From the IMG/VR virus record IMGVR_UViG_3300026136_000413, positions 1 through 28,980 of that record: a stretch of 28,980 nt of DNA; one strand, 5' to 3'. Position 1 is the stretch's first letter. Every line of letters starts with the position of its first letter. Below the pieces are notes generated by a model that ran no database searches, had not been told where the DNA came from, and was given only the letters and a program-made list of their open reading frames with translations. Source of the stretch: a virus. Position numbers and translations under genes: made by a program. Positions 17,071 to 28,980 of this stretch are shown one piece after another.

Positions 17071-17808
17071 GTTTACCCAGTCTTTTTGTTGCTGATCGTC
17101 TGATATCCATCTCATCAAGTGAGCATAGATGCCTATCTTTATGTTGGGTTGATCACAATACCATCTCAGGAAAGAGTTTCCGTCTATGTATTCTCTCCGA
17201 TTAATAAAATAGAAATTGGTTTCGGGAAACTTTCTAAATGTTTGCCTTAGTTGGTACATCCATTCATATTTTAGATATGCCTTCATGCTCATACGTGATG
17301 GGTAATTTGGTGAGTTCTTGTATATGTTGTTTTGTATCCTGCTAGGTTCCTCCATCTCCCATTGTCTTGCACCCAATATGTCGAAGGCCAGTATGACAAC
17401 ATTTTTAACTCCAGACTCGGCCGCCATGAGCACTGCCGAACATCCGGACCCCCTGTTCAATGAAAAATCTTCAGTCTTTATCCTGCCACCCTTCTTTAAG
17501 TTGCCACCTCTCCAGATACGATAAATTTTAAGGCCACGTGGTGTGTCGTTTTCTTTGTCTCCGTCACAGATGTAGTCCCATTTGCTTATGTCATCGATGC
17601 CGTGGATCTGGGGAGATTCCTTTCCGTTGTTGTGCCATTTTGCAAGTTCTTCGTACATTGGGGGATTGACTGCAACAATATGATCACAGAGTTTTGGATG
17701 ATCCCTGTATATGGCATTGCAACCATATATCACACCATGGCCTTTCAGTTTGTCTATTGGAAAAATGTTTCTTGACTCACCATTGCCTATTACGAATGCA
17801 GTGTCCAT
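17065..17808 (-). CDS. sialyltransferase-fold protein (GT42/DUF115-like), copy A
   Basis: A 247-residue protein starting MDTAFVIGNGESR. The ATG at 17808 overlaps the IscA-type stop (TAATG), so an upstream in-frame start is not needed. Motifs are IGNGESR (7-13), GCNAIYRDH (29-37) and SGCSAVLMAAESGVKNVVILAFDI (121-144). This order parallels GT42 sialyltransferases such as Campylobacter CstII (GNGPSL, RCNxFY, then TSGxxxxxxAxxxGYKEIYLSGIDF) and the related DUF115/MAF group. Inferred: a Rossmann-like glycosyl- or nucleotide-sugar-binding enzyme. The donor is unknown. The Trp-rich C-terminus (RWYCDQPN, LMRWISDD) may be an acceptor site. A paralogue lies at 21749-22390. Confidence 0.62.
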   Translation of the reverse strand: MDTAFVIGNGESRNIFPIDKLKGHGVIYGCNAIYRDHPKLCDHIVAVNPPMYEELAKWHNNGKESPQIHGIDDISKWDYICDGDKENDTPRGLKIYRIWRGGNLKKGGRIKTEDFSLNRGSGCSAVLMAAESGVKNVVILAFDILGARQWEMEEPSRIQNNIYKNSPNYPSRMSMKAYLKYEWMYQLRQTFRKFPETNFYFINRREYIDGNSFLRWYCDQPNIKIGIYAHLMRWISDDQQQKDWVNL

Positions 17809-18143
17809 TACACCCCAAATGATTCTCCGCAACCGCAAGAACTTGAACTGTTGGGATTGCTTATTTCGAATTGAGAGCCAAAGACTTCTTCTTTCCAGTC
17901 TATCTTTGTGCCTGCCACGTACATCATTGACGCTTCGTCCACAACAAATCTACCTGTGTGCCAGTCTACGATCTCATCGTCTTTACCTATATCATCTTTC
18001 TTGTCAATGAATCCCCATTCATATTTGAAACCCGCACAACCTCCGCCCATTACTGCAAGGCTGATTGCATACTTGCCTGGGTTCTTGGCCAAAAGTTTTT
18101 CCATTTGGTTCTTTGCTTCGTCTGTTATATCAAACCATTTCAT
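17808..18143 (-). CDS. A-type iron-sulfur cluster carrier (IscA/ErpA/HesB-like)
   Basis: A 111-residue protein of normal length for the family. The three cluster-binding cysteines are present: C36 in GGGCAGFKY and C103 and C105 in the C-terminal CGCGESFG. The HesB fold is visible (ITDEAKNQMEKLLAK helix, ISLAVMGGGC strand, FVVDEASMMYVAGTKIDW). The family binds a 2Fe-2S or 4Fe-4S cluster and hands it to apo-proteins. HesB-like genes are known from T4-like marine phages. Inferred: it supports an Fe-S enzyme needed in infection. The 2OG oxygenases of this window are non-haem iron, not Fe-S, so the client is not identified. It overlaps copy A by one base. Confidence 0.9.
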   Translation of the reverse strand: MKWFDITDEAKNQMEKLLAKNPGKYAISLAVMGGGCAGFKYEWGFIDKKDDIGKDDEIVDWHTGRFVVDEASMMYVAGTKIDWKEEVFGSQFEISNPNSSSSCGCGESFGV

Positions 18144-19167: not shown

Positions 19168-20248
19168 AACCCTTCCTCAATGTTTCCATTTGTATCTTTT
19201 GCCAGTCCTCGCTTTCCAGAGTGTAGGGATAATCACACTCATAAGTTCGACTACCTATTATTTTGATATCAGTTATATTTAAATTTCTTGACAGTGTTTC
19301 ATGTATGTCTTCGAACTTGGCATCTTTGCCAAATGTTCTTTGTAGGTCGACCTGTCCTATCTTGATGTAACCCAATGCCAGTTTAGGGTCTTCCCAGTCA
19401 TAACCATTAAGTTTTAACCAATCCCTATACTGATCCATCTCAGTTTGTTTCCAATCCCATGTGTCTTCGTCTATTGTTTGTCCCCATTCTATGTCAAACT
19501 CTCCAGAATAAAATTTTTGATGGTTTATCTCAGAGCAAGTGGCTTCATCCATTTTTACTGCACCCTCATCACGGAAAACTTCATACAGAGTCTTGCCCAC
19601 CTGTGACCAATGCAGATACACACCGCCAAGTTCTCTTCTATACCTGTTATTTTTGAAGAGCTCGTAATCCTCGTCGTGTAAGTCATGCCTTGGAGAATTT
19701 AGAAAAGTAGTGATTTGGGATGGCCTCATCCATTGTGGATTGGTCATTTTTTTACGATATGACAAAACCCAACTCTCTATCTCATGACAGAGATTGTTCA
19801 ACTGTCTTATAGAATACTTTGTTTTATAATCTGCTTGTTTGTAGTATTCTGACAGTTTCCATGCTGTACCTTGAAGTTCTTCAAAATATCTATGCAATAG
19901 ATTACAAGCATCATGTTTCAATCTGTAGCCATTGCGTTGAGAAAACTGGAAGTCGTCCTGGCTGAACATTTCTATCTTTTCATAGGGCGGATCAAAAGCA
20001 AAAGAATTGATCTGTGTGATGTTTTCATTCAATTTTTGTGTGAGATACCTAAGATCTCTTTTGCTGTCAGCGAATCCTAGGAAGCAAAAATTCTTTTCTA
20101 GAACTCTCTTTTGAATTAAATTATCTTGTAATGCCTCTAGCCATCTTTTGCCCAACGACGTATCATAAATCTCTACGTAGTAGGCAGTGTTGTCTAAACC
20201 AACCCTGACCAAATCAAATAGAAATTTATCCTCTTTTGTAGATGGCAC
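19145..20248 (-). CDS. phage protein of unknown function (about 367 residues)
   Basis: Start revised: the longest frame begins with TTG codons around 20287. The GTG at 20248, 6 bases after GGAG, is the best supported start, giving PSTKEDKFLFDLVRVG at the N-terminus. This section (AYYVEIYDTSLGKRWLEAL) recalls N-terminal domains of hypothetical proteins in marine T4-like phages. Later parts are helical and Trp-rich (NLCHEIESWVLSY; TWDWKQTEMDQYRDWLKLNG). Near 200-245 stands LHDEDYELFKNNRYRRELGGVYLHW, acidic and basic in alternation. No catalytic motif or membrane helix is recognised. It overlaps queD by 23 bases and the glycosyltransferase by 23 bases, so it is part of that operon. Confidence 0.6.
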   Translation of the reverse strand: MPSTKEDKFLFDLVRVGLDNTAYYVEIYDTSLGKRWLEALQDNLIQKRVLEKNFCFLGFADSKRDLRYLTQKLNENITQINSFAFDPPYEKIEMFSQDDFQFSQRNGYRLKHDACNLLHRYFEELQGTAWKLSEYYKQADYKTKYSIRQLNNLCHEIESWVLSYRKKMTNPQWMRPSQITTFLNSPRHDLHDEDYELFKNNRYRRELGGVYLHWSQVGKTLYEVFRDEGAVKMDEATCSEINHQKFYSGEFDIEWGQTIDEDTWDWKQTEMDQYRDWLKLNGYDWEDPKLALGYIKIGQVDLQRTFGKDAKFEDIHETLSRNLNITDIKIIGSRTYECDYPYTLESEDWQKIQMETLRKGYESRSLR

Positions 20249-20675
20249 TGTTGGCTCCGTGTTCCATACATTCAACACTAACCACAAAACATCTATTGTT
20301 CGTTTCTGCTCTGATCATGCTGTCTGCAAAATCAAAAGCATGTTTGGCGAACATTTCAGCACCAACTCCGTCCATTATTGTTAGACTTGCAAGATCCATT
20401 TCTTCCAACTCTTTAAATTTGTCGATGTGAGGATCATTACTGTCAAGAACAACTTTATGATCAAAACTGTTCTCCAACCATTTCTTTAATGGCTTGAGTC
20501 CACCGAAGTCCACTGCCCAATTTTTGTTGTCAAGGTCTTTACATCCAAAAGTAAATTTGAAAGCAAGACTGTATCCATGCAACAGATGGCAATGCGAATG
20601 ATCTGCATTGGGTTGTCTGAACACCGCTGATAGTCCTATGTTGTGTCCGTATGTTTTAGTTGAGTAGTAAGTCAT
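20226..20675 (-). CDS. queD: QueD-like 6-carboxy-/6-pyruvoyl-tetrahydropterin synthase
   Basis: A 149-residue T-fold enzyme. The motif HSHCHLLHGYS (26-36) retains the catalytic Cys (C29) and one zinc His (H33). VDFGGLKPLKKWLENSFDHK (55-74) matches the DFxxLK...DH block, and VECMEHGANSAIY (134-146) supplies the Glu at the pterin pocket. Two classical zinc ligands are replaced (F19 and Y35), but extra His at 26, 28 and 30 offer substitutes. I recall a proteobacterial QueD subfamily with this HC..LHGY form, so it need not be inactive. Function: synthesis of the 7-deazaguanine precursor, used by some phages to modify DNA or tRNA. No queC, queE or folE is in the window. AAGGAG stands before the ATG, inside a hairpin loop. 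Confidence 0.85.
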   Translation of the reverse strand: MTYYSTKTYGHNIGLSAVFRQPNADHSHCHLLHGYSLAFKFTFGCKDLDNKNWAVDFGGLKPLKKWLENSFDHKVVLDSNDPHIDKFKELEEMDLASLTIMDGVGAEMFAKHAFDFADSMIRAETNNRCFVVSVECMEHGANSAIYKRG

Positions 20676-25609: not shown

Positions 25610-27535
25610 TTAATCTTTGATAGTGTACACTTTTATTTCTTCAGTTTTACCCTTGACAGTGATGCTGTCTATGTATTCGAATGGATATGCTGTCTCTATT
25701 GTGTGCCTTGTTTCCTCACCAATCACTATGGTCTTACCTAATGTTTTGGATGAACTTTCCAGTCTACTTGCAAGATTAACTGCGTCACCTATCACAGAGT
25801 AATCAAATCTCTGTTCGGACCCCATATTGCCAACCAAGGCTTCTCCTGTGTTGATGCCTATTCCTATGTTGATTTGCGGAAGTCCCTCAGCAACCAAACG
25901 TATGTTTAATTCTTTTAACGCCACTTGCATTTCTATTGCACTTTTAATAGCCATTTCTCTATGTTTAGGATTATCTATGGGAGCGTTCCAGAATGCCATT
26001 ATACAATCTCCCATAAACTTGTCTATGGTTCCACCATTGGCAATAATGACATCTGTCATACGTGTTAGGAACCTATTGATCAGTTTTGTGAGACCTTCCG
26101 GATTGCCCTTGTACTTCTCGCTTATGGGTGTAAACCCTCTTATGTCTGAGAACAAGAAAGTCATGTTCCTTGTCTCACCGCCTAGTTTCAAAAGCGAAGG
26201 ATCTTTCTGTAATTTTTTAACCATGCCTGGATCTAGATAATGTTCGAATTGTTTCTTGATCTGTTTTCGTAATCTGCTTTGCGTAGCAAAATTATTGTAG
26301 GTGCTGTGTGACCAAATCAAAAATATGTAGAGCACTGCAAATGATGGATCAACTAGAAATCCTTTGTTTGCGTATGCAATAAATGATGCATAACTTATAC
26401 CACCTGTCACAAATAAAAGTAAAGGAACAGAAAATAACACCGACACCCTAGGTATCAGTAATATCATTAAAAGACCAAGTAAACCTATAAAAATTATTTC
26501 ATATGTATCTGCCTGCGGCGTCCTTAGTAGATGTTTACCAGTCAAAAGTGTGTCCAATGCCTGAGCACTAATCATCTGATCTGTTGTCAAACCATGTGGT
26601 GTGTATTTCAACACACTGAGTCCAGCGGCATCCATGCCCACCACAACAATTCTGCCTTTTATCTTGTTCTCATTAAATTCGCCAGAAAAGACTTCAGTGG
26701 CGGACATCTGCACATACTTTTGTGGATCAGCATAATTTATATACATTTCTGCATTATGATTGACCGGTATACCGGCTTTCTTACTGACAAGCACTTCATC
26801 TATTCCGTGTTCTTTTGCTATGACTTTAATCCTTTTGGAACCGTTTAGTAATCTAACATTTTCTAGTATCATGCTTGGATAAATTTTTCCGTTGATCCTT
26901 ATCAGCACGGGCATCTTTCTAACCACGGCATCTGGTTCAGGTGATGTAACATTCACGCCCATTCCAACCACTCCTGCACTTATCTTCTGTGTTGGTGAAA
27001 CTATACCTAGGTATTCATACAGCCAAGGTTTGACATTTCCTTTTTCAATTATCTGTGTTGTGCTTGGTAACTCTACACTGCTTTGGTTCTTTACACTCAT
27101 CAATATAACTGCCCTGCCGGATTCTTTCAACACGGTTGAAAATACAGCGTCGGTATCTAACAGTACAGCACCCAACTGGTCTCTTAATTCATTTGTCATG
27201 GGCATACTTTTTAGATACTCCGTCCCACTCATCCTGTCAGGTTCTGCAAACAGTATGTTGTAGTTGACAAGCACCGCTCCTGCGTCTGCTATCGTGGCGT
27301 GTAGCATGGCCATCACGTGCCTGGGCCATGGCCACTGTCCATATCTTTCTAGGTCCTTTTCGGTGATGTTGATTACAGTGACCGAATCACTGATAGTTTC
27401 TCTAGGATGTATCTGTTGGAAATAGTCCCAGGTTTTGTATCTCAAAGTTTTCACTGTGTCGCCGTTGTCTATCCTTATTCCCAACAATACAGCGGCTACG
27501 ATTATGACCATCCATATGCTTGTTAGTATCCTCAT
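25610..27535 (-). CDS. CHASE2-domain adenylyl cyclase (class III)
   Basis: A 641-residue membrane enzyme. Order: a TM helix (5-20); a CHASE2 sensor domain (about 30-335) with SVTVINITEKDLERYGQWPWPRH and VLVNYNILFAEPD; three TM helices (about 344-410); and a class III cyclase domain (about 455-640). The sensor lies outside the membrane and the catalytic part in the cytosol. Cyclase residues: D464 in LFSDIRGFTP and D510 in FMGDCIMAF (metal), K506 and D578 in RFDYSVIGDA (adenine selection), N587 and R591 in VNLASR (transition state). All are kept, so cAMP from ATP is expected. It is unusual in a phage. It starts inside the preceding membrane-protein gene (ATGA overlap) and ends 11 bases before the one-TM gene pair. 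Confidence 0.9.
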   Translation of the reverse strand: MRILTSIWMVIIVAAVLLGIRIDNGDTVKTLRYKTWDYFQQIHPRETISDSVTVINITEKDLERYGQWPWPRHVMAMLHATIADAGAVLVNYNILFAEPDRMSGTEYLKSMPMTNELRDQLGAVLLDTDAVFSTVLKESGRAVILMSVKNQSSVELPSTTQIIEKGNVKPWLYEYLGIVSPTQKISAGVVGMGVNVTSPEPDAVVRKMPVLIRINGKIYPSMILENVRLLNGSKRIKVIAKEHGIDEVLVSKKAGIPVNHNAEMYINYADPQKYVQMSATEVFSGEFNENKIKGRIVVVGMDAAGLSVLKYTPHGLTTDQMISAQALDTLLTGKHLLRTPQADTYEIIFIGLLGLLMILLIPRVSVLFSVPLLLFVTGGISYASFIAYANKGFLVDPSFAVLYIFLIWSHSTYNNFATQSRLRKQIKKQFEHYLDPGMVKKLQKDPSLLKLGGETRNMTFLFSDIRGFTPISEKYKGNPEGLTKLINRFLTRMTDVIIANGGTIDKFMGDCIMAFWNAPIDNPKHREMAIKSAIEMQVALKELNIRLVAEGLPQINIGIGINTGEALVGNMGSEQRFDYSVIGDAVNLASRLESSSKTLGKTIVIGEETRHTIETAYPFEYIDSITVKGKTEEIKVYTIKD

Positions 27536-27894
27536 TCTAGTTCCTTCATTCCCTCATATATGCCAGTTGTAAAAGCAATAATCAAAAGCAATACAATTAA
27601 TATGGCAGGACTTAATAACCATAGGTACCAGTAGTAACGGAATATGTTCTGTCCTTTTTCAAGTCTAATTTTTCTATTGTCGATGAACCAATGCACAATT
27701 CTTTTTATGAAATTTTTAACGTGTTGGTTTATAAACTTTGCCAACAGCCAACGTATCACTCTCATAACGATCAGTATGGGAGAACTCAACACGTCAAACA
27801 CTATCAGGAACACGTCTACACTGAAGTCTACGATGTTATCAGCGGTGCAGGCCTTACGCCATCTTTCCTTGATTGTTAATTTTTTATCGCTCAT
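27532..27894 (-). CDS. two-helix membrane protein
   Basis: A 120-residue protein beginning MSDKKLTIKERW. The ATG at 27894 overlaps the stop of the 41-residue gene (ATGA) and follows GGAGGCGG, so the longer frame upstream is rejected. Hydrophobic segments stand at about 25-52 (FSVDVFLIVFDVLSSPILIVMRVI) and 93-113 (LSPAILIVLLLIIAFTTGIY), with a basic amphipathic region between (KNFIKRIVHWFIDNRK). It is thus likely an inner-membrane protein with a basic cytosolic loop. No family is recognised. It is in the same overlapping run as the cyclase and the HlyD-type gene. Confidence 0.65.
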   Translation of the reverse strand: MSDKKLTIKERWRKACTADNIVDFSVDVFLIVFDVLSSPILIVMRVIRWLLAKFINQHVKNFIKRIVHWFIDNRKIRLEKGQNIFRYYWYLWLLSPAILIVLLLIIAFTTGIYEGMKELE

Positions 27895-28016
27895 CCGCCT
27901 CCGAATCCTGTCCAGTTCCATGGGTCTTTGAATTTATCCTCAACAGATTTGTGAGGTTTGGCCGTGCACCTTATACAAAGTCCAACTAGTATTCCTATCA
28001 AAAACCAACTCAACAT
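27891..28016 (-). CDS. 41-residue one-TM membrane protein
   Basis: A very short gene: ATG at 28016 overlaps the stop of the HlyD-type gene (TAATG), and its TGA overlaps the next ATG (ATGA). The product begins with a membrane helix MLSWFLIGILVGLCIRC and ends with DPWNWTGFGGG. Its upstream extension in the same frame is only a shadow of the HlyD-type gene. The flush overlaps on both sides are the main support; no family is recognised. It may be a small subunit of the membrane complex. Confidence 0.62.
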   Translation of the reverse strand: MLSWFLIGILVGLCIRCTAKPHKSVEDKFKDPWNWTGFGGG

Positions 28017-28717
28017 TATCTCTCCTGTAGCGCCTGTCCTATTCCGTTGTGGAAAGGTGTTGTGATATAACTCAACACAGTCCTTTCTCCAGTTAATATA
28101 AACACATACACATGGATACCAGGCACCAGATTGTATGTTGTGTCTCCGCTTGTAAAAAATTCTTTTTCTATTTGCAATTCTATATCGTACCATGCCGCGT
28201 TTTGTGATTGCACTGCATCTGGTGATATGGATATTACTCTAGCATTTATGCTATCAAATTTTAATTGATCCTGATTTGCCAGCCTCACTTTTGCATCCAT
28301 TCCAACCGTGACATATCCTCTGTCTTTGACCAATAGTCTTCCATTCACTATAAGTTTCTGATCTAATGGTACAAGTATTGCTAGTCCGTCCCCCTGTTTG
28401 ACAACGGAACCTGGATTTTTATAAGTTAATTCCTGTATCCTACCATCAATGTTTGCAACAATGTTTCTAGGTTCGTAACCAACTCCAGGATTGATTGTTA
28501 TTATGACATCACCTTTCTTAACGACATCACCTTGTTTATAATTTACAGCAACAATTTCTCCTGTTACCATTGTTCCTAGTTTTGTAATATTTTTTTCAGG
28601 AACAACAATGCCAACTGCCTGTGTTGTTATGTCTACTTTTGCAAACCACATCCACACGAAGAATACCACGAATAGAGTTGTAATCGCAAAAAAGAATCTA
28701 CTACTTGCTTTTGACAT
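28016..28717 (-). CDS. HlyD/PrtE-type membrane-fusion protein without coiled-coil hairpin
   Basis: A 233-residue periplasmic adaptor of type I secretion type. Order: a TM helix (8-26), half a lipoyl domain (47-78, TGEIVAVNYKQGDVVKKGD) and the second half (88-116, IDGRIQELTYKNPGSVVKQGD). A beta-barrel part (120-215) follows, and the signature ending YNLVPGIHVYVFILTGERTVLSYI, very near to the HlyD C-terminus (LxPGMxxxVxIxTGERTVLxYL). Between the lipoyl halves, where other HlyD proteins carry a long alpha-helical hairpin reaching TolC, only a few residues are left. It would therefore not span the periplasm by itself. Overlaps the transporter gene by 17 bases. Confidence 0.82.
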   Translation of the reverse strand: MSKASSRFFFAITTLFVVFFVWMWFAKVDITTQAVGIVVPEKNITKLGTMVTGEIVAVNYKQGDVVKKGDVIITINPGVGYEPRNIVANIDGRIQELTYKNPGSVVKQGDGLAILVPLDQKLIVNGRLLVKDRGYVTVGMDAKVRLANQDQLKFDSINARVISISPDAVQSQNAAWYDIELQIEKEFFTSGDTTYNLVPGIHVYVFILTGERTVLSYITTPFHNGIGQALQER

Positions 28718-28980
28718 AATTTATTATTTCTCCCACTGCTTGGTCACGTTGTTTTAAAAATTCAGTTGCCTTGGCATACTTGCTGGTACCCTGTAATGCC
28801 CTCGCCGCCAATATGTTTGAACCAATTAGCAATCCAATGTCCAGTGTGCCTGCTATTATCATCATGGCACCAACTGACATGATTACTATTGTCTGTAGGC
28901 CATTTAAAAATATTTCTATGTTGCTTTGTGTGTCCTGTGACATAGACACATTCCTTTTCCATGTAATTAAAAAGTACATG
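28701..28980 (-). CDS. type I secretion ABC-transporter membrane domain, C-terminal end, no ATPase (runs off window)
   Basis: A frame open to the window edge. Residues after SQDTQSNIE show GLQTIVIMSVGAMMIIAG and TLDIGLLIGSNILAARAL. These parallel the last two transmembrane helices of PrtD/HlyB-type exporters (LQSxxLGLGAxLVI, then GxMIAASILxxRAL). It then ends with QRDQAVGEIINYVKSK, in place of the linker to the ATPase domain. Walker A and B sequences do not follow; instead the HlyD-type gene starts. An ATG at 28943 behind AAAGGA would give an 80-residue protein, but homology-like sequence before it (TWKRN) suggests the gene continues beyond the window. Inferred: a transporter that has lost its motor or uses one from elsewhere. 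Confidence 0.62.
   Translation of the reverse strand, partial: MYFLITWKRNVSMSQDTQSNIEIFLNGLQTIVIMSVGAMMIIAGTLDIGLLIGSNILAARALQGTSKYAKATEFLKQRDQAVGEIINYVKSK

Follow-up and report, generated by a model that had tools for sequence, protein, structure and literature searches.

Five overlapping genes at the end of a viral contig

The window examined here is the whole stretch of 28,980 bases of the IMG/VR virus record IMGVR_UViG_3300026136_000413, and the subject is a set of five minus-strand reading frames at its end (25610–28979) that joins parts of a type I secretion system (T1SS) to an adenylyl cyclase. The frames overlap tightly, by 17, 1, 4 and 4 bases, and all five were found as an earlier note on this DNA had described them. 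The contig terminates inside the first gene, the start of which lies beyond the contig edge, and the part present (28701–28979) encodes the C-terminal 92 codons of a T1SS-type ABC exporter membrane domain, identified by homology to full-length phage copies. The second gene (28016–28717) encodes a HlyD-family adaptor of 233 amino acids (aa) that matches the Pfam families HlyD_3 (E 2e-16) and Biotin_lipoyl_2; alignment to a bacterial HlyD (locus L145) showed that the lipoyl and barrel parts are present and the coiled-coil hairpin is absent. Next are P41 (27891–28016), a 41-aa protein with one transmembrane (TM) segment, and P120 (27532–27894), a 120-aa protein with two TM segments.

The last gene (25610–27535) encodes a protein of 641 aa that matches CHASE2 (E 7e-40) and Guanylate_cyc (E 1e-23) in Pfam. 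Residues D464, K506, D510 and R591 were conserved in all 61 aligned phage cyclases and N587 in 60 of the 61. With both the CHASE2 domain and the catalytic residues present, the protein is identified from its sequence as a CHASE2 class III adenylyl cyclase.

The complete cassette in related phage contigs

Relatives of the cyclase are encoded by 308 viral stretches, and the best 80 of these were kept for comparison. T1SS genes lie in the same order at no fewer than 25 distinct cyclase loci, and at least one T1SS gene was found at 28 distinct loci, one of which also has curli genes. A further 24 loci show neither T1SS nor curli genes, mostly because the contig ends near the cyclase. Many contigs (e.g. 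L003, L005, L014, L024, L025 and L032) extend no more than a few hundred bases beyond the cyclase gene on its upstream side, and such ends, there or in the exporter gene as in the window, suggest that variable or repeated sequence in the export genes broke the assembly.

Longer contigs give the full order as a gene for a giant FecR protein, TolC, the exporter transmembrane domain (TMD), HlyD, in some cases P41, then P120 or other small membrane proteins where present, the CHASE2 cyclase, and the small proteins P92, P76 and P89. The giant proteins of the relatives (1005–1696 aa) carry FecR at the N-terminus, an extended acidic region that resembles a coiled coil, and cadherin domains, with RTX repeats only in L013, and have no evident signal peptide. 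Their FecR domain, which bears out a guess that a FecR-like protein lies upstream, matches the FecR family of curli-carrying phages (phrog_37870, E 1.8e-32), and the TolC that follows belongs to the OEP family (E 3.5e-51). Conservation of gene order across phage genomes had been set beforehand as the test of the operon; the order is kept, the cyclase is widespread, and no complete exporter was found upstream in the related contigs.

One contig with the whole T1SS-type cassette (L114, 31.9 kb) is a phage contig apparently binned into a bacterial metagenome-assembled genome (MAG), the Rickettsiales MAG MED657. The chromosome of this MAG has a FecR/T1SS/CHASE2 cyclase locus of its own (L155).

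A stripped export machine under selection

The 20 distinct complete phage exporter domains are 247–251 aa long and have no nucleotide-binding domain (NBD). The phage TMD aligns to residues 1–168 and 239–283 of the full-length bacterial exporter of L145 (551 aa), such that about 70 residues between TM4 and TM5, in the region of the second coupling loop, are gone together with the whole ATPase, and the first intracellular loop is retained. A TMD copy from L090 matches the ABC transporter family phrog_2392 (E 2.7e-14), and its AlphaFold2 (AF2) model (predicted local distance difference test 80) retrieved HlyB/HlyD (8dck) as the top Foldseek match and PrtD (5l22) as the seventh. The 24 complete phage HlyDs are 232–255 aa long, except for one of 323 aa. 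Against the L145 HlyD, the alignment covers residues 14–74 and 264–417, with about 190 residues of hairpin gone. The losses of ATPase and hairpin that the earlier note had read in the window are real, and they recur in almost all copies.

The phage TolCs have about 150–190 extra charged N-terminal residues, and bacterial TolCs align to them from phage position ~183–187 (the extension is shorter in L044 and L210). As a guess, this extension might replace the HlyD hairpin. Set beside an ordinary T1SS, which has an exporter with TMD and NBD, a HlyD with hairpin and a TolC-type outer-membrane channel, the phage cassette has the TMD alone, a HlyD with lipoyl and barrel domains in which only L017 keeps a short hairpin remnant, and, in the relatives, the channel.

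A search of the phage contigs, all partial and the longest of them 172, 148 and 138 kb, found no exporter ATPase, in agreement with the ATPase-less exporter of the earlier note. The 148-kb and 172-kb contigs gave zero ABC_tran matches. SufC is the sole ABC ATPase above the family cut-off in contigs of this group, other ABC_tran matches being weak and below it. The sufC gene (L109:1450-2187, in a 137.6-kb phage contig) has a SufE-like gene upstream, and the two form an Fe-S assembly pair. As all carrier contigs are partial, the absence of an exporter ATPase is not proven.

Ratios of nonsynonymous to synonymous substitution (dN/dS) were calculated by the Nei–Gojobori method (NG86), excluding several pairs saturated at silent sites. 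Values were 0.03–0.07 for the TMD, 0.025–0.07 for HlyD, 0.04 for the cyclase in the closest pair, 0.007–0.18 for P41 and 0.08–0.15 for P120. The parts of the cassette tested are under strong purifying selection, and the stripped machine is not decaying. Chance assembly of the operon is ruled out by the conserved order together with this selection, and the same evidence upholds the earlier proposal of a conserved operon joining a pared-down T1SS to a CHASE2 cyclase.

Small membrane proteins around the cyclase

P120 occurs in many, not all, cassettes, and the 17 aligned sequences are 54–84% identical; its AF2 model (predicted template modelling score 0.28) was too poor for a structure search. 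P41 also precedes the cyclase in a phage contig of the curli type (L073). Downstream of the cyclase in the window, and on the same strand, are P92 (25320–25598), which has one TM segment plus a helix, and its paralogue P76 (25090–25320), both members of phrog_18771 and neighbours in the relatives as well, where they sometimes lie on the strand opposite to the rest of the cassette. P92 also adjoins csgF in phages HTVC008M and Melnitz. P89 (24813–25082), small and conserved, comes after the cassette in many contigs and is an uncertain member of it. No holin family match was found for P92/P76 or for the proteins of the variable slot, and a holin annotation of the small membrane proteins was dropped.

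A curli version of the cassette and the origin of its parts

The earlier note knew of no described phage system of this kind, which was too strong: a module of curli (type VIII secretion system, T8SS), FecR and adenylate cyclase has been published for pelagiphages (PMC9599517), partial curli in phages have been reported (PMC7029224; PMC9004378), and the cyclase belongs to the same phage family. HTVC008M and Melnitz carry CsgF–CsgG–curlin–FecR–curlin–cyclase with P92/P76 in front, and in L073 and L075/L076 a curli version again adjoins P92/P76/P89. PMC9599517 places a 'histidine kinase, sometimes two' before csgF, and this may be the P92/P76 pair. In HTVC008M (L104:4929-5491) and Melnitz (L105:5210-5848) this pair consists of 76–115-aa one-TM proteins that have no kinase domain.

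CsgG and CsgF are absent from the T1SS-type loci and present in L073/L075/L076, HTVC008M and Melnitz. Both export systems occur only in L020 (3848-11022) and L053, where they lie side by side in opposite orientation with one cyclase each, the T1SS-linked cyclase being beside FecR–CsgG–CsgF with a second cyclase. L048 has two cyclases and curli genes. Like the published module, the T1SS-type cassettes have a FecR-domain protein and a cyclase of the same family in one operon. No description of a phage T1SS version, or of a FecR/T1SS/cyclase link, was found in the literature, coverage of which was thin for subscription papers and preprints. What is new here is a T1SS variant of the already described phage curli-and-cyclase cassette, in uncultured marine giant phages.

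In the cyclase tree, all phage cyclases and a curli-linked Caulobacteraceae cyclase (L160) form one group with support of 100. The approximately unbiased (AU) test rejected a common group of the T1SS-phage cyclases and the L145-type cyclases linked to T1SSs in bacteria (p 6e-6), and with it an origin of the phage cyclase from the latter. The tree nests the T1SS-phage cyclases inside the curli-phage group, an arrangement to which the AU test leaves the alternative open (p 0.42), and the FecR-domain tree does not separate an affinity with phage curli from one with bacterial giants. The phage HlyDs group, with moderate support (93), with those of marine alphaproteobacterial T1SSs, for example L145 and the FecR-giant loci L152/L155. 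As the cyclases group with those of curli phages and the HlyDs with marine alphaproteobacterial T1SSs, the T1SS-type operon looks like a mosaic.

Carrier phages and possible host

The 148-kb contig shares 64–66% DNA polymerase identity with the remaining long contigs of T1SS or mixed type and with the curli-type L076. By the same protein, the closest isolates (44–50%) are the jumbo phages Phosso, Vibrio phage 2.275.O, 121Q/PBECO4, CBB and GAP32, and the clamp loader is 56% identical to that of PA5oct/MIJ3-type phages. DNA polymerase identity of the carriers to HTVC008M and Melnitz is only 28–33%, and the HTVC008M capsid, portal and terminase proteins had no matches in the 148-kb contig. An HTVC008M-like carrier was ruled out by the absent core-protein matches and by the DNA polymerase pointing to jumbo phages. 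By these protein comparisons, the cassette is carried by marine phages related to jumbo phages of the 121Q/GAP32/Phosso type. The phage DnaK is 68–70% identical to those of Alphaproteobacteria and 64–65% to those of SAR86, a weak hint that suggests an alphaproteobacterial host.

Elsewhere in the window are genes for a UvdE UV endonuclease (124–1164), a Cpn10-like co-chaperonin (1810–2277), an A-type Fe-S carrier (17808–18143) and a PTPS/QueD-like protein (20226–20675). The 148-kb relative also has proteins reading as GroEL, DnaK, ClpB and DnaJ.

Bacterial neighbourhoods of FecR, T1SS and CHASE2 genes

Around the nearest bacterial cyclases, T1SS genes lie within ~10 kb at 37 of 79 loci, and a FecR gene is found at 25 of the 79. 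Of 20 whole genomes, 12 have a Pfam FecR gene no more than ~13 kb from a CHASE2 gene (read from coordinates), where, for genomes of 1–5 Mb with 0–10 FecR and 1–4 CHASE2 genes each, about one chance case is expected by a rough estimate. In bacteria, too, RTX-bearing proteins of the T1SS type have FecR close to the N-terminus. At least nine genomes of marine Alphaproteobacteria have a cyclic nucleotide (cNMP)-binding domain in the HlyD adjoining the cyclase, followed by small cNMP-binding proteins. These operons (L157:6104-12790, also L155, L158, L159, L162, L164, L172, L181 and L152) encode an ABC exporter with a C39-like domain, a HlyD with an N-terminal cNMP-binding domain, a CHASE2 cyclase and one or two stand-alone cNMP-binding proteins, a composition that suggests that cyclic AMP (cAMP) may gate the T1SS directly there. 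No cAMP receptor or cNMP-binding domain was found in the phage contigs.

Interpretation

The reading favoured here, at about even confidence, is that the window holds the downstream part of a phage surface-display and sensing cassette, in which the giant, adhesin-like protein would be displayed on the infected cell, its FecR domain would be an envelope-retained reporter and the CHASE2 cyclase would be the sensor. This reading is preferred because of the conserved order, the giant with FecR, cadherin and RTX parts, the TolC, the homology of the giant's FecR to that of curli phages, the bacterial FecR/T1SS/CHASE2 neighbourhoods, the N-terminal FecR of bacterial RTX proteins, the swap with curli, the two-system contigs with two cyclases, the purifying selection and the biofilm-linked FecR and CHASE2-kinase operon of Burkholderia (PMC5192318). 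The genes had earlier been set as solely an inner-membrane sensor complex, which was not supported; as relatives add an outer-membrane TolC and a giant FecR–cadherin(–RTX) T1SS-type substrate, the unit looks like a surface-export cassette.

Beyond the gene set, its conservation, its structural losses and the selection on it, we infer export, an energy source, sensing and a target for cAMP. During infection, the stripped conduit would carry or hold the giant across the envelope, C-terminus first, and the N-terminal FecR domain would be held back as a plug on the periplasmic side. CHASE2, as an extracytoplasmic sensor, would respond to the FecR module or to the envelope state that FecR reports, and would alter cAMP output toward host cAMP receptors; that the phage switches host cAMP signalling is plausible. 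The curli version would do the same job via CsgG/CsgF, curlin-repeat proteins and a separate periplasmic FecR protein. The phage would probably benefit from a remodelled infected-cell surface, through aggregation or 'sibling capture' or by keeping competitors out, and cAMP would serve as feedback. With no ATPase, the drive would have to be supplied by the proton motive force, by folding of the protein outside the cell or by an NBD of the host. A more specific proposal, which is possible though doubtful, is that the ABC fold lacking ATPase and loop, the hairpin-less HlyD and the TolC with an extra periplasmic extension form an ATP-independent trans-envelope conduit, the state of which is read by the cyclase via FecR–CHASE2 contact.

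Several points weigh against the display and sensing reading. The window itself lacks the FecR giant and TolC, as the contig ends first, and the C-termini of most giants have no canonical T1SS signal. With the ATPase missing and the loop shortened, conventional ATP-driven secretion is improbable except with an NBD from the host. The Melnitz study observed no clumping with the curli version (PMC9004378). FecR–CHASE2 contact, export of the giant and a rise in cAMP are as yet predictions of this reading.

An unlikely though credible alternative is that the cyclase is a stand-alone host-takeover enzyme that raises cAMP to steer host CRP-type regulators, the export genes being separate surface-modification genes in the same operon. 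Its active site retains the catalytic residues, and cNMP-binding proteins occur in the candidate alphaproteobacterial hosts, with no receptor found in the phages, but the cyclase accompanies FecR and surface export in phages and often in bacteria, and the second cyclase of the two-system contigs would be needless for a free-acting enzyme. It is rather improbable that the conduit is a sealed or gated trans-envelope assembly that times lysis, as proposed for the Melnitz curli pore (PMC9004378), with P92/P76/P120 holin-like and the cyclase as timer. The missing ATPase, the shortened intracellular loop, the several small TM proteins and the presence of P92/P76 beside both cassette types are consistent with this, whereas the failure of P92/P76 and the variable-slot proteins to match any holin family argues against it, and a giant substrate with cadherin and RTX repeats would be left unexplained.

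Of much the same small probability is an ordinary T1SS with split subunits, in which a host or phage NBD acts in trans. In its favour, the TMD retains the first intracellular loop, its AF2 model has HlyB as a match, and an NBD gene could sit in the unsequenced parts of the carriers; however, the ~70 residues missing between TM4 and TM5 include the region of the second coupling loop, and besides SufC only the weak sub-cut-off ABC_tran matches were seen. A functionless, degenerate remnant of a captured bacterial T1SS might be read from the missing ATPase and hairpin, but this is scarcely credible when dN/dS of the TMD and HlyD is so low (0.03–0.07), the frames are intact in dozens of contigs and the same deletions are found in almost all copies.

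Comparison with known systems

Cyclase-linked surface-export cassettes are published for T4-like pelagimyophages and podophages, and those described here are in jumbo phages. Two export machines with one cyclase family argue that the FecR–CHASE2–cyclase set is a general partner of surface export. The long-open question of what CHASE2 senses thereby becomes testable, and the cassette provides a natural example of an ABC exporter apparently working without its ATPase.

The closest known system is the pelagiphage T8SS module (HTVC023P-type podophages, HTVC008M and Melnitz; PMC9599517, PMC7029224, PMC9004378), which also has a CHASE2 cyclase of the same family, FecR and surface-export genes in one operon and P92/P76 as neighbours. 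The cassette described here differs from it in the pared-down T1SS and FecR–cadherin giant, the absence of CsgG/CsgF, and carriers related to jumbo phages. Alphaproteobacterial T1SS loci with an RTX/FecR giant (e.g. L132, L135, L145, L155 and L157) likewise have TMD, HlyD, TolC, FecR giant and CHASE2 cyclase as neighbours, and the order TMD–HlyD–cyclase is shared with L145 and L135. However, the bacterial exporters retain the ATPase and the bacterial HlyDs the hairpin, some with a fused cNMP-binding domain, and the cyclases, mostly 730–850 aa, are on other branches of the tree than those of phages.

LapA-type adhesins secreted by T1SSs are similar in that the N-terminal domain of a giant T1SS-type protein could stay behind in the envelope, with FecR here in place of the LapA retention module, and CHASE2/cAMP in place of LapD/cyclic di-GMP and the LapG protease. 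The Burkholderia BiofilmReg operon, which encodes a LysM-FecR protein and a CHASE2 histidine kinase and is linked to biofilm (PMC5192318), also has FecR and CHASE2 as neighbours, but there the output is a kinase and no exporter is present.

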